Part shown: positions 5,701-14,700 of the stretch, piece after piece
How positions within the stretch are numbered: position 1 is the stretch's first letter
Layout of the letters: every line of letters starts with the position of its first letter
Source: Argopecten irradians
Taxonomy: Eukaryota; Mollusca; Bivalvia; Pectinida; Pectinidae
Assembly: GCF_041381155.1 (NCBI RefSeq)
Contig: NC_091134.1
Location: forward strand, 59,241,467 to 59,305,466
Direction: 5' to 3'
DNA: 64,000 bases
Notes under the pieces: model-generated
Seen by the model: the letters and a program-made list of their open reading frames with translations, nothing else
The model's database searches: none
What the model was told of the DNA's origin: nothing
Position numbers and translations under genes: made by a program

Positions 5701-8700
5701 CTCTATCTATGCTGTATGCATATTGAAAAGACTGCTATACCATAGATTTCTAGAAATGTTTCATTTTAACTTGAGGGACTCATATTTTTGGTAAAAAGAA
5801 ATAATAGTAAAAAAAAAAACAACTGACGACAACGAAATACTAATAATTCTAAAAACTAATTGATGATTGATAACAATACACCAGCAATGTACTCAAATCC
5901 ATTTAGTTTGTGTTTAGTTTTGAAATAAAACAGTAGTGTACTTTATTCACTATTTTATTCATTTTTTTTTAATTTCCCTCATTTAATGCTATTCAAAAAT
6001 TGTTTTTGTTAGATTTAATTGCATATTGTGAAGTTTTAATTCTAAACTGAACTGTGATACACTTACCTTCAACACATGTAACAGTTTGCCGTGATGAGAG
6101 TCCCAAACCTTGAGAGTACAATCGTTCACAGCCGTCACCACTAAGTTATCATCCAGGTTCCAAGCAACCATAGTGACACGTGGCTTCTGTGACTTGTCCT
6201 CTGTTTCTGGTTTTGGACAACTACATGAACAGTAGAGAATAAATACATAACCATTATACAGAACACAGTAGTTTTGTATTAACAAACACATGCAACACAA
6301 AAACTGGAATGCCACTCCCCCTCACCAATTAAACTTCCTTTGAAATAGATTCTAAAAGAAAAACTGTGACACTGCACATCCGGTTATAAGTACTTCCCAG
6401 ATAAACTTACAAACCAATGCCAAGATATCACAAACAATTAGATGCTAAGACAACACTGTTTTAATTCATTAAAGGATTTTTGCATGAACTAACCGATTAA
6501 TAGCAAAACCTAATTAATAGCAAAAACTGTCCAAACTGACAAATGGTAGTTTTTCTGTCAAAATTTCTTTTAATATCAAACACAGTTTGGCAGTTATGTT
6601 GAAACTTCCAATCTTCTTCCTCTACATACCTAGGTAATCTTGTTGACATTGACAGGATGATGGACTTCCATTCTTGTCTATCAAAGCGCCAGATGCGAGC
6701 TGTGCCGTCCCTACTCCCACTGACAAACCTTTCACCACTATTACTGTAGCAGATACTGTCAACTCGGTCCTGTAATGATGATGAAAATGGAGTCAATTGT
6801 AGCAATTTATTTACAACAACCTTTATTAATATACATGTGCTGTACTGGCCTTTTGTGTAATGAAAGTGGGTGCATGTACTCAGTGACTTACATTCGTAAC
6901 CACTTTAATGTCCCAGCCACTGAATATATACGAAAATTACAAAGTCAGCTACAAGAACAATACAACCATTTTAAATCTTAAAGTTGAATTGCCATGAAAA
7001 AAGTTACTAGGCAAGATGAAGTGAAAGTATTTTGAACCAAAAAGATTTTATGCAGCTTTATGTATACTTGTACGAATTTAAGTGAACACAATCTTGTGTT
7101 GGAAAATAGCTATACTTACAGTATGAGCCTCTAATTCACATATCTTTTCTGGCGTAGTGACATGTAGAAAATATACTCTGATCACATGATCAGCACTTCC
7201 TGTGGCCAGGAAAACACCCCCTGGACTGAACGATGAGCACAACATCTGGGCTCCGGCTCGTGATCTCTCAATAAACTTGGCTGGTTTCGGGCTGGAAGTG
7301 TTAAAGATGCATGCTGGTTAAATATATCACTTACTTTTGTTAATTTAATCTTTCATTGAGTAATAAACTTTATACATCAAACAAAGTATTATATAAACAA
7401 ATAAACTGTCTTGTCATTTAATTGTCTATAGTATGACTAATATATTATGAAGAGCTCTTATTTTAAATGTCAATGTATATACAAGATCTGATGATACTAC
7501 TGTCAACTGTTACAGGTATCTTTACTAAAGGGAAATGTTGTGAGAATGTGACCTACTTAAATTTGTTTGTGGTGACATTCCAGGTCCAAAAACATACACA
7601 GCCATCTCCACCAGTGGAGGAAAGTATGCGGTGCTCTCCCCTGGCCTGAGGGCAAAACTACAAATAAACATCATATCAAGTAAAATAAATAAAACAAGAG
7701 CTGTTGGAGAACAGCAAAGCTCGCCTATTCAGAAGAAGTTGATGTTCAAGTATTTACTATTTAAACATGGAAATATGACATATTAACAGACTCAAAAACC
7801 TCCTAAAGGGCCCCAAATTGGTTGTATTATCATGTTCAGCATCCATACATATTAGTAAAATAAAATCATAAACATTTATGATGACTTAAGCTTAAAAACT
7901 AGACAAAATAGAAACTTGCTCAAAAACTTTAACATGGAAATATGACAAATTAACAAACTCAAAAAAAAAACCCTAAAGGGCCCCAAATTGGTTGTCTTAT
8001 CACGTTCAGCATCCATACACATTAGGAAAATAAAATCATAAACATTTATGATGACTTAAGCTTAAACAATAGACAAAACAGAAACTTGCTCAAAAAATAA
8101 AATCATAAACATTTATGATGACTTAAGCTTAAACAATAGACAAAACAGAAACTTGCTCAAAAACAAGAGGCCCAGAGGGCCTGTATCGCTCACCTGGTTT
8201 GTAATGCCAAGTAATGTTCTGAATACAGGTTCATTGTTTCTTTTCTGAAGGAATTTTAATATTAACCTCTAAATCCCCTATTAGGCCCCACCCCTCCTGC
8301 CCGCAGGGGGTCAGAGCCAAAATTTATACAAGTTCTGTTCCCCTTCCCCCAAGGATGTTTGTGGCCAAATTTGGTCACAATCCAAGCAAAACTCTAGGAC
8401 AAGTAGCAATTTATAGGATTTACCTCTATTTCCTCTATTGGGCCCCACCCATCCTGCCCCTGGGGGGCCAGAGCCAAAACTTACACAAGTTCTGTTCCCC
8501 TTCCCCCAAGGATGTTTGTGGCCAAATTTTGTTACAATCCATACAGAACTCTATGACAAGTAGCGATTTAAAGAATTTACCTCTATTTCCCCTATTGGGC
8601 CCCGCCCCTCCTGCCCCCCGGGACCAGAGCCAAAATTTATACAAACTCAGTTCTTATTCTCCCAAGGATATTTCTGGCCAAATTTGGTTACATTCCATGC

Positions 8701-11700: not shown

Positions 11701-14700
11701 ACGTAAAATGGGACTCCAATGCCAACGCTGACGCCGGGGTGACACATTAGCTCTCCCTATTCTTCGAATAGGCGAGCTAATTACAAATCAATAACACAGC
11801 TGTGGGCCAATCAAACTGTTAAAAGTATAGAATCTATCTGTTTTGCTTTAACACCTAGCCATACACTATACATTAAAATTAAGTATTACATGACATGCTG
11901 TCTTACCTGTAAAGAGGTTATCATCCCTGTATGGGCCTGTAGCACAGCTAATGGAGCTTTGGTCCGTAAACACCACACTCGAATGATCTTATCACAACTA
12001 CCCGAGGCTAATAATGTGTTTTCAAAGTTCACAGCAATGTCAGTAATCTCAGAGTTATGACCCCTTAGTGTATCAATCAGTCGCCCACTTGCTGCGAACC
12101 AAATCTTGATGAGGGCATCATCAGCACCCTTAAAGCAAAGATAATGTGATCAAATGAAAGTCATTTTCATAAAGCATTATAATTTTTTTTCTTTTTTTTT
12201 TTTGGTGCAGTAAATAAATAACACAAAATGCAATCACACATATAACAAAATTTCACTATTTGCTCCTTTACATGATAATGTTGTTACACATAGCCTATAT
12301 ACAATTTAGTTTGATAGTTTACTCAAAATCTTAACGCACGATTAAAATAAATTTTTAAAACATTCATTAACTCTTCTCAACTTTATAAATCACATGCAGG
12401 TATATTCTCATGCTAACAATAGTAACTTACAGTGAAGATGTACTGGCCAGTCCTATCAAAGGCTACACAGTACACAGCTGATAGATGCCCAAGCTTTCTG
12501 GCATGCATGTTCACTTTTGAGAAGATGAAGATGGGGCAGATGAGGTCTCTTCGACTCTGTCCCGTCATCTCGCGTGCTTTTGTTACATGGCCTGTGAACA
12601 AAACAGATTCACAATCGGCGTTAAGTAGAAATAAAGAAATAACAATTAACTGATACATAGGGATCCAATTGCTTATTTATTATCATAAATATATACCAGG
12701 TATGTTATATTGTAATAAAATCTGTTTTTTGAATACTTACTTCAATCACAATAAAATGTTCGACCTAGGATATAGGATCTTATAACAGTGCTTTTTCTTA
12801 ATTTTTCAGGTGTCATGTCATGATATAGACTGTATCTAACAGAATATATTTTAAGATCGTATTGACCATCTGAGTTGATTTACAGTCAAAGCTATGACCA
12901 CTTCAAGTGCTCCAGATAAGTTTTGGAGGGTGGGTAATTGTACTCAGCCTACTCATACTTTTGAAAAGTAAGTGTACCACTCTTGACTATGAACCCAAAT
13001 TTTAACAGATATATGTCCCAAAAAGTGGTTATATAAGATGTGTATAAACACACAAATATACAAGACATACTTAGAGAAGGAACAACTAGGTTTATAGGTG
13101 GCTGTAGAGGGCGATGATGATGTGTGGCTATATGTCGTTCTGGTCGCCATCGCGGATGGTGCACAGCTGCAAATATAGATTTCAACAATTACTATACAGT
13201 ACTAAAAACATGGTTATAAAGAACCTCTAGTGACCATCAAACTTATTTCGTTATAAGCATATTACCTAAAGTCATTATACATGTATCACAATCATCTAAC
13301 AGGAACCTTGGCAGCGAAATAAAAATCATATGTTTTACTTATCAACCTTTTTATCATGCAACAACCTGGAAGACATTAACATTTGTGTTTGCAATATACA
13401 TCCTGTGTTTCTAACCAAAGTCTTTATCTCCAAACTAAATCTGAATATTTTGCTATAGAAGGATTTTTTTGTCTTCACATTGGTTTGGATATGCACATGC
13501 TTTCAACCCACATTCTGAAGCAAAAAAAAAATTGGTTTCTTGATATATGTGCACGTTCTCTAATTTAAATATCAAAATTTCTCACAAAAAAAATAATATA
13601 TATATATATATATATGACTCACATTCTTTGGTCCTCAGAAGAGACTGTTGTCCAGCTCCTAAAAGTGATTGTAATCCTGTGGCAGATGAATTGATTTCCT
13701 TGTCCAGAAGGGGGCCCAAGCGTTGACATATTTGCAAGAGGTGACTTGATGATATGTGACGATTGAGATTCACCTAAATTATTTAAATTTATTATTTATT
13801 GAAACATGTTTTCAAAATACTTTATTAATTAAGAATAAAGCACAATAATCACTTTTAACTATCAGTTAAATGCGTTTGGTAAAATCACTCCGAACAAGTT
13901 TTTCAACATGACCACGTGCTTATGTTTACTATCAATACAGGTGGACCAATCAGCGTACAGAACTGTTGGGCATTTCCTTTTCTCAATGGATATTAATAGC
14001 CACATGACCTTTGTCGATTTGCTGCGATTTCATTGGCTTAGCACGCCACGTTCCACGATGACGTCACGCATATGACCTTGCACATTTGATATGATAATGC
14101 TTAGGAAAATTATTCGAATTTGGACGTAAATAGTCTAACAACGCTAATTTTCTCAATAAAACCTAATAAGATAAATTAATGAGATTGAAATTCTGCAGAA
14201 AATAATGGCATCGACGGAGATGACTATGAAAGACAAAATTTTCATAAAATTCAGCATCCTTCCCACATGTCAAGTTTATCCACTTTCACATTTCTTACCA
14301 AATTTTCGTAACTTCTTTCATGTTGTCTGCCTTCCCAATCAATTCTTTTTGGTAAAAGCTGCAAAACATAACATTTTCAATATCACCAAAATTCCGTGCA
14401 CACGTCAAAAAATGTGGCAACAAAGTGAAATTATTATAAATCAAGCTTCAAAATTTCATAAAATCACCTCGTTAGGTACGGAAAACACCGTAAAGAGCGC
14501 GTAATTTGTAAATAAAGTCGACAGCACAACGACTCGACTTACCTGGTGTTCTTTCAGCTCCTGCCTCAACGCCTACAAAAGAAAATGAAATCATCAGTAA
14601 CTAGAATAAAAACTGATTTCAATTAATCGACAAAATGACTTGCACCTACCTCTGAAGCCCGCTGACATGGTCCTGATGCGAGGAACCGGGAGATTAGGAA

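Follow-up and report, generated by a model that had tools for sequence, protein, structure and literature searches.

Six array-bearing elements in a 64,000-nt stretch of DNA (the window) are very probably non-autonomous HINEs of the Helitron2 type. A rolling-circle protein, a Rep-helicase(-endonuclease), probably copies them in trans, and the matched subterminal motifs (ATIRs) of each element are predicted to mark its two ends as a unit. All six shared one terminal plan, consisting of T^TAGC, a 5' ATIR, an array, an inverted 3' ATIR, a palindrome (weak in family C) and TCTTGT^T. The first-pass annotation had described a shared end architecture, which was borne out, but its reading direction was reversed relative to the published Helitron2/HINE layout. 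In the published orientation, the ACAAGA plus small hairpin that had been taken as the 5' end is the 3' end, and the hairpin ahead of GCTAA, which had been assigned to the 3' side, forms the 5' end. The class that had been suggested, Helitron2/Helentron-derived HINEs resembling the mollusc Pearl elements, was supported by the ends, the geometry of the ATIRs, insertion into a T run without target duplication at one clean site and the central arrays. HINEs carry satellite-like arrays through mollusc genomes.

The three family A elements, one family B element and two family C elements were found within a few bases of their annotated positions. Element B (7694..11779, reverse strand; 5' ATIR at 11766-11777, 3' ATIR at 7719-7730, 3' palindrome at 7700-7715) has a span that includes A1 and A2, which are nested in it. 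A1 (8163..10547, reverse strand) had TAGC...TCTTGT ends and a 157-bp array, with the 5' ATIR GCTCACCTGG at 10536-10545 and the 3' ATIR CCAGGTGAGC at 8188..8197, 25 nt from the 3' end. The other family A elements were A2 (10644..11566, reverse strand; 5' ATIR at 11555-11564, 3' ATIR at 10669-10678) and A3 (29977..31968, forward strand; 29979-29988 and 31934-31943). Both family C elements lay on the forward strand, C1 at 38273..39452 (5' ATIR at 38275-38282, 3' ATIR at 39419-39426) and C2 at 39884..40845 (39886-39893 and 40812-40819). Arrays were present as described, with units of 157 bp in A and 170 bp in B, but the 155-bp unit of C was shorter than the range of ∼157 to 170 bp that had been given. 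No coding sequence was recognised: none of the eight open frames of at least 110 amino acids inside the elements matched any Pfam family. Description of the families as unrelated in sequence was slightly overstated: A1 and C1 were 74.7% alike over 99 bp (E = 2e-10), at the start of the microsatellite/array. Elsewhere in the window, the earlier list lacked an element of another family, D (26900..27156, forward strand), which is truncated on its 5' side and has a 3' end of GGTCAGATGACC, palindrome and TCTTGT, and a truncated D-type array of 146-bp units (52335..52770, reverse strand) ended in GTCAGATGACCGTTAAG.

Two patterns describing the ends were derived from the six elements themselves, and the test therefore lay in the absence of extra matches and in shuffled sequences. 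TTAGC[CT]C[AG]CC and GG[CT]G[AG]GC.{0,35}TCTTGT each had six matches on the two strands of the window, and all 12 were termini of the six elements, with nothing else matched. In 200 dinucleotide shuffles, the mean number of matches was 0.20 (maximum of 3) for the 5' pattern and 0.10 (maximum of 2) for the 3' pattern. The ends differed from those of canonical Helitrons (Helitron1), having TAGC, TCTTGT and a T^T target rather than 5' TC, 3' CTRR and an A^T target. Outside this genome, the family A end had two bacterial matches among genome contigs, which were taken as chance, and none in viral contigs; a text search of the literature for the end sequences yielded nothing on topic by title.

The first 60 nt of each element were compared with its last 60 nt for inverted matches. 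The longest exact match was 10 nt in A1, A2 and A3, 13 nt in B and 8 nt in C1 and C2, and it was equaled in 1, 4, 3, 0, 28 and 19 of 1,000 shuffles, respectively; the family C match alone is therefore only weakly beyond chance. Placement was uniform, with the 5' ATIR 2 nt after T^TAGC in all six elements and the distance of the 3' ATIR from the 3' end being 25 nt in each family A element, 24 nt in B and 26 nt in both C elements. Matches were 8 to 13 nt within families and at most 7 nt across families. Covariation of the motifs between the three families, as had been claimed, was thus observed, and the 5' and 3' ATIRs may be recognised as a pair.

Insertion sites were consistent with this class. 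A family A copy on contig C15 sat in the T6 of a Rep-gene copy, and an unfilled paralogue of this site had identical flanks; all six T residues were accounted for if the element is read as TAGC..TCTTGT. Insertion at this one clean site, into a T run, had occurred without target duplication, as the earlier proposal had anticipated. A2 interrupted a B unit at a run of T, consistent with a T-rich target, while the A1 site was not clean because A1 also differs from the B unit by a 40-bp gap. On an older view of Pearl-like elements, the six would be cut-and-paste MITEs with short subterminal inverted repeats, in keeping with the lack of recognised coding sequence and with short inverted repeats that lie close to either end. 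This origin is very improbable, as the repeats are asymmetric (2 nt versus 24 to 26 nt from the ends), the termini proper are not inverted repeats and the clean empty site carries none of the target-site duplication typical of MITEs. We give equally little credence to unequal exchange or segmental duplication as the means by which satellite arrays moved, in which case the repeat unit would include the end motifs. Arrays do dominate the elements, and some end-to-end copies are regularly spaced, such as three junctions on C5 that lie ∼660 bp apart, but nothing except the element, from one exact end to the other, distinguishes the filled from the unfilled paralogue of the C15 site, which speaks against this as the general mechanism. 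The 3' ends of one family directly adjoined the 5' ends of another, a further addition to the published picture. Should resident ends attract new insertions, these abutments would help to explain clustered and composite elements.

The 5' ATIR was paired with downstream bases in a clear hairpin in A1, A2, B and C1. The A1 hairpin (10518..10547, reverse strand; −14.6 kcal/mol, z = −7.06) had one unpaired T, and the letters of the A2 hairpin were identical to it; the B hairpin (11747..11780, reverse strand; −10.2 kcal/mol, z = −4.92) had an internal loop. The hairpin arm was absent from A3, which had no 5' hairpin, and the C2 hairpin had decayed; the claim that a copy of the motif forms a hairpin arm is therefore valid for four of the six elements. 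As for the small terminal hairpin that had been reported, now the 3' palindrome (8163..8181, reverse strand, in A1, with the terminal TCTTGT), a stem was visible in A and B but weak in C. Values of z were −0.98 and −1.29 in A and B, where the stem forms but not beyond shuffles, and −0.25 and −0.35 in C. The 5' end of families A, B and D and of A', a family related to A, consisted of TTAG, a stem and a GAA loop; the 3' end here was CTCTTGT. The 5' hairpin was interrupted by the unpaired T in A, by a bulge in A' and D and by the internal loop in B. It was uninterrupted in family C, being perfect in one copy (L013) and departing from this in C1 only by a G.T wobble on the outer side.

The 846-Mb genome contained the end motif of family A thousands of times, with 12,687 occurrences of its 5' ATIR compared to 376 of the reversed pattern. 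The bulged 5' hairpin of family A had 2,374 exact copies (none for the reversed control) and the unbulged form 2, so that the T was unpaired in 2,374 of the 2,376 counted. These copies derive from few sources and therefore cannot count as independent cases in favor of selection on the bulge. This conserved unpaired T is a testable addition to the published Helitron2 picture. A literature search for a bulge together with Helentron, Helitron2 or HINE gave PMC5148889 as the only on-topic title among the matches listed, with no occurrence of "bulge."

As modeled by Bao and Jurka (PMC3627910), Rep would nick at T^TAGC and the strand would be peeled off starting at the 5' end; the exposed 3' ATIR would then pair with the 5' ATIR and open the 5' hairpin, and this pairing would set the end point at TCTTGT^T. 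In the portions of that paper available, the proposed pairing rests on structure and on one pair of related elements. To this we add the suggestion that the 5' hairpin may be kept slightly flawed so that a flawless ATIR-ATIR duplex can displace it; an unpaired base would ease opening of the hairpin when copying ends. The full form of this strand-exchange switch, in which a fault inside the 5' ATIR hairpin lets the flawless 3' ATIR open it and stop copying, and a resident TCTTGT^T is then a preferred landing site for other families, is an unlikely one in our estimation. The conserved fault of a single base in the 5' hairpin, opposite a 3' partner that has none, offers a defined change to test.

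In all five families, folding estimates gave the bimolecular ATIR duplex a lower energy than the 5' hairpin in its folded state. When like was compared with like, as two separate strands, the 5' arm of A paired better with its own arm (−16.7) than with the 3' ATIR (−15.1), the two were equal in A' (−16.0) and only B, C1 and D had the weaker pairing with the own arm. The switch thus receives mixed support from these energies, and for A, the family of the bulge count, the estimate is against it. We lean slightly toward the explanation that the bulged A hairpin is common merely through one source copy and has no function. The shared ancestry of the copies, the uninterrupted hairpin of family C and the better pairing of the A 5' arm with its own arm all favor it, but the A', B and D hairpins are interrupted at a similar place in different ways, and the 3' ATIR of A retains the base matching the unpaired T.

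Recognition of the ends need not involve strand pairing. A Rep protein may bind each end as a DNA sequence, the two ATIRs being copies of a single binding site that face in opposite directions; we put the chances of this at a little short of even. ATIR copies are identical within families while the hairpin arms drift, and both A3, with the arm lost, and C2, with the arm decayed, keep exact ATIRs. Protein binding alone leaves unexplained, however, the 5' hairpin in A1, A2, B, C1 and the 2,374 family A copies. Protein-site recognition and strand pairing cannot be separated by sequence data.

A search for an autonomous Rep/helicase partner sharing the ends had been suggested. PF14214 had 104 matches in the genome. 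We covered 30 of these loci with ∼1.5 kb on each side, 11 of them with a further 1.1 to 5 kb upstream, and read 3 downstream. The same frame of the Rep copy on C13 held PIF1 (1e-29) and Exo_endo_phos (3e-8) domains downstream. The genome thus encodes a Rep-helicase-endonuclease (Helentron) protein, which is not linked by its ends to A, B or C. No A, B, C or D end read into Rep at the 30 of 104 loci covered, and no such partner was found at the Rep genes read. Three candidates were rejected. The 7.5 kb that separate a pair of family A ends at L084 were a HINE of family A' and contained no Rep gene; its long open frames resembled, as judged by eye, LINE endonuclease and reverse transcriptase. 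A D-type 5' end, TTAGGTCACC, 1.4 kb upstream of a Rep open reading frame (L051) was followed by a D-type 3' end (TTTTGT) before that frame and therefore belonged to a complete D copy. An apparent common 5' boundary of the Rep-helicase-endonuclease copies on C13 and C184, seemingly supported by C15, reflected a breakpoint in C13 alone, as C184 and C15 remained 91% alike across it. A D-type end was also seen at L077 in the scan upstream of Rep genes.

Comparison with known systems is based on the portions of the cited papers available to us. In Helitron2 (Bao and Jurka 2013, PMC3627910), ATIRs of 8 to 15 bp are described, with the 5' ATIR 0 to 2 bp from the 5' end, in a hairpin, the 3' ATIR ∼20 to 30 bp from the 3' end, directly before the 3' hairpin, and a 5' T. 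This layout of ATIRs and 5' T is that of the six elements, four of which have a clear 5' hairpin. Pairing of the ATIRs, proposed there as the end signal, both hairpins and compensatory changes are thus already published; the examples are from other species, and those portions mention no conserved unpaired 5' hairpin base. HINE/DINE-1 elements (Thomas et al. 2014, PMC4067079) are alike in having subTIRs, a 3' palindrome, central repeats, no coding sequence and a T-rich target without modification. In the mite families described there, however, the 3' subTIR lies 38 to 60 bp from the end, compared to 24 to 26 here, and families are defined by an identical subTIR of at least 11 bp, compared to 10 in A and 8 in C. 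Among the fungal FoHeli elements (PMC5148889), FoHeli1/2 have a 5' end of T(c/a)AG, a stem and a GAA loop, and FoHeli3-5 have a 3' end of CTCCTGT; the 5' ends of families A, A', B and D and the CTCTTGT end seen here resemble these, but in FoHeli the two forms belong to separate subgroups, and FoHeli1/2 insert at TNAT rather than in a T run. The oyster Cg_HINE/Pearl elements (PMC7492417), for which an autonomous partner was likewise not identified in the account available, are likened here by description rather than by sequence: they share a subTIR, an inverted repeat, a microsatellite, an array of 140- to 180-bp units, a 3' subTIR, a palindrome and an oligo-T target.

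Six elements of three families were delimited in the window: A1 (8163-10547) and A2 (10644-11566), both nested in B (7694-11779), together with A3 (29977-31968), C1 (38273-39452) and C2 (39884-40845). One terminal plan was common to all six, and the array units measured 157 (A), 170 (B) and 155 bp (C). Two patterns derived from the six elements themselves, TTAGC[CT]C[AG]CC and GG[CT]G[AG]GC.{0,35}TCTTGT, each had six matches on the two window strands, and all 12 were ends of these elements (shuffle means of 0.20 and 0.10, respectively; 200 shuffles). None of the eight open frames of at least 110 aa inside the elements matched a Pfam family. 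The shared end plan and the lack of protein noted in the first-pass annotation were upheld, while its orientation was reversed relative to the published HINE/Helitron2 layout. According to the portions of PMC4067079, PMC7492417 and PMC3627910 available, such elements have near their 5' end a repeat that either forms a hairpin with its neighbour or precedes a complementary repeat; its inverted copy lies 20-60 bp inside the 3' end, with a palindrome after it. By this layout the order was T^TAGC, ATIR (a short repeat whose inverted copy lies near the 3' end) with hairpin, array, inverted ATIR, palindrome and TCTTGT^T, with (GTCC)n between the 5' hairpin and the array in families A and C. The 5' hairpin was clear in A1, A2, B and C1, missing from A3 and decayed in C2, and the 3' palindrome gave a stem in A and B that did not exceed shuffles and was weak in C. 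The six elements are additions to an already known kind of element. Directly beside the A1 3' end, 67 bp of B sequence were perfectly duplicated in tandem (8027-8163), and non-LTR retrotransposon frames were present at 48832-51600 (minus strand; reverse transcriptase PF00078, 2.6e-35; endonuclease PF14529, 3.1e-17).

The longest exact inverted match between 60-nt ends was 10 nt in A1, A2 and A3, 13 in B and 8 in C1 and C2, and was equalled in 1, 4, 3, 0, 28 and 19 of 1000 shuffles of A1, A2, A3, B, C1 and C2, respectively; for family C the paired-end evidence was thin. Every one of the six elements had its 3' ATIR at a distance of 24-26 nt from the end. End motifs covaried, as had been proposed, with matches of 8-13 nt inside families and a best of 7 between them; covarying ends are an already published hallmark. 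A wider scan, biased because it demanded 8 matching nt, because many loci had been picked with patterns for family A or for junctions and because five B copies lay inside one larger repeat, gave 22 raw matches in 348,722 letters of fetched and window sequence. Six were removed (loci L055, L056 and L073, a false 5' end at 26855 and two cross-pairs). A palindrome of at least 5 was present in 13 of the 16 kept, and also in L073 and one removed cross-pair; the reversed-sequence control gave three matches, none with such a palindrome.

The family A 5' hairpin contained one unpaired T, and the family A 3' ATIR kept the matching A. In the genome (845.8 Mb, 1508 contigs) this hairpin pattern occurred 2374 times, in copies of common ancestry, compared with 0 for the reversed control, and the pattern with the base supplied occurred twice. 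Among fetched ends, a bulge was found in the related family A' and the further family D, an internal loop in B and neither in C. Estimated DNA energies of the folded hairpin and the bimolecular 5'-3' ATIR duplex, which have unequal reference states, were -14.3 and -15.1 kcal/mol (A), -13.6 and -16.0 (A'), -8.4 and -17.1 (B), -10.7 and -12.4 (C1) and -12.3 and -15.9 (D); were the stem unbroken, the folded form would outdo the duplex in three of the five (A, A' and C1). On an equal footing, with each pairing computed between two unlinked strands, the 5' arm gave -16.7 kcal/mol with its own arm and -15.1 with the 3' ATIR in A, -16.0 with either in A', -10.8 and -17.1 in B, -12.1 and -12.4 in C1 and -14.7 and -15.9 in D. 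Because the 3' ATIR was better in three of these comparisons, tied in one and worse in A, the energies would lend mixed support to a switch in which it displaces the flawed hairpin.

On contig C15, an A copy lay inside a Rep-gene copy (5' junction L075, 3' junction L067), and a paralogue without it (L063) supplied the empty site, GATTCCC-T6-GTTGCATG, with identical flanks. All six T were explained if the element is TAGC..TCTTGT, and the expected lack of target duplication was borne out at this pair. The A2 position, within a T run of a B unit, fits the same insertion mode; the A1 site was not clean, with a 40-bp gap against the B unit as well.

Genome-wide, GCTCACCTGG occurred 12,687 times, compared with 376 for the reversed pattern. 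Six of these sites at contig C1:5414122-5430906, all in one orientation and evenly spaced by ~3355 bp, likely form a tandem array with one element end per unit. The Rep family PF14214 had 104 matches, many within open frames of >1000 aa. Downstream of Rep in a contig C13 copy, a frame encoded both a PIF1 helicase (1e-29) and an Exo_endo_phos domain (3e-8), matching the RepHel-EN composition of Helentrons, and another locus had Rep and PIF1 in one 1526-aa frame. At L085, a 225-aa open frame (4512-5186) downstream of a Rep-PIF1 gene had no Pfam match; its terminal stretch may resemble an SGNH hydrolase. The autonomous partner sharing these ends, which the first-pass annotation had suggested seeking, did not emerge: no A-, B- or C-type ends read into Rep among 30 of the 104 matches, inspected with ~1.5 kb on each side and, for 11, 1.1-5 kb further upstream. 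Two partner candidates and one supposed element boundary were withdrawn. A partner was likewise not identified in the oyster study, in the portion available (PMC7492417).

The junction pattern TCTTGTN{0,4}TAGCYCACC, some of whose occurrences sit in tandem arrays, was found 171 times genome-wide and 5 times reversed. Among 100 matches listed, the spacer was absent in 57, T in 12, TT in 5, TTT in 17, TTTT in 3 and other in 6. Eleven zero-spacer junctions, all on contig C1, were inspected, and 7 joined a recognisable 3' end exactly to another family's 5' end: D to A' (L011 and L012, 98.7% alike), D to A (L015 and L029), C to A' (L022), C to A-like (L032) and B to A (L031). L013 probably also joins different families; L020, L025 and L037 had no recognisable 3' end. 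A looser pattern, TCTTGTTAGCYC, gave 310 occurrences versus 44 reversed, a count inflated by a separate repeat at 13 of 30 inspected loci. This repeat (..TCTTGTTAGCTCGCCATAGACC.. and variants) contained the junction letters at L014, L016-L019, L024, L026, L027, L034-L036, L038 and L039, and several copies had a short B element ~80 bp off on the opposite strand. Regular 3'-to-5' junctions at contig C5:21851677-21853022 and C5:49958043-49961485 (~660 bp and 1.7 kb apart) probably mark complete elements arrayed head to tail.

In the portions of literature searched, no earlier report emerged of two features, the constant flaw in the hairpin and the zero-spacer abutments between families. Helitron head-to-tail junctions and tandem arrays are already published (PMC5876387, PMC5148889); the portions of those papers available describe tandem arrays and FoHeli4 beside FoHeli4, whereas here different families were joined.
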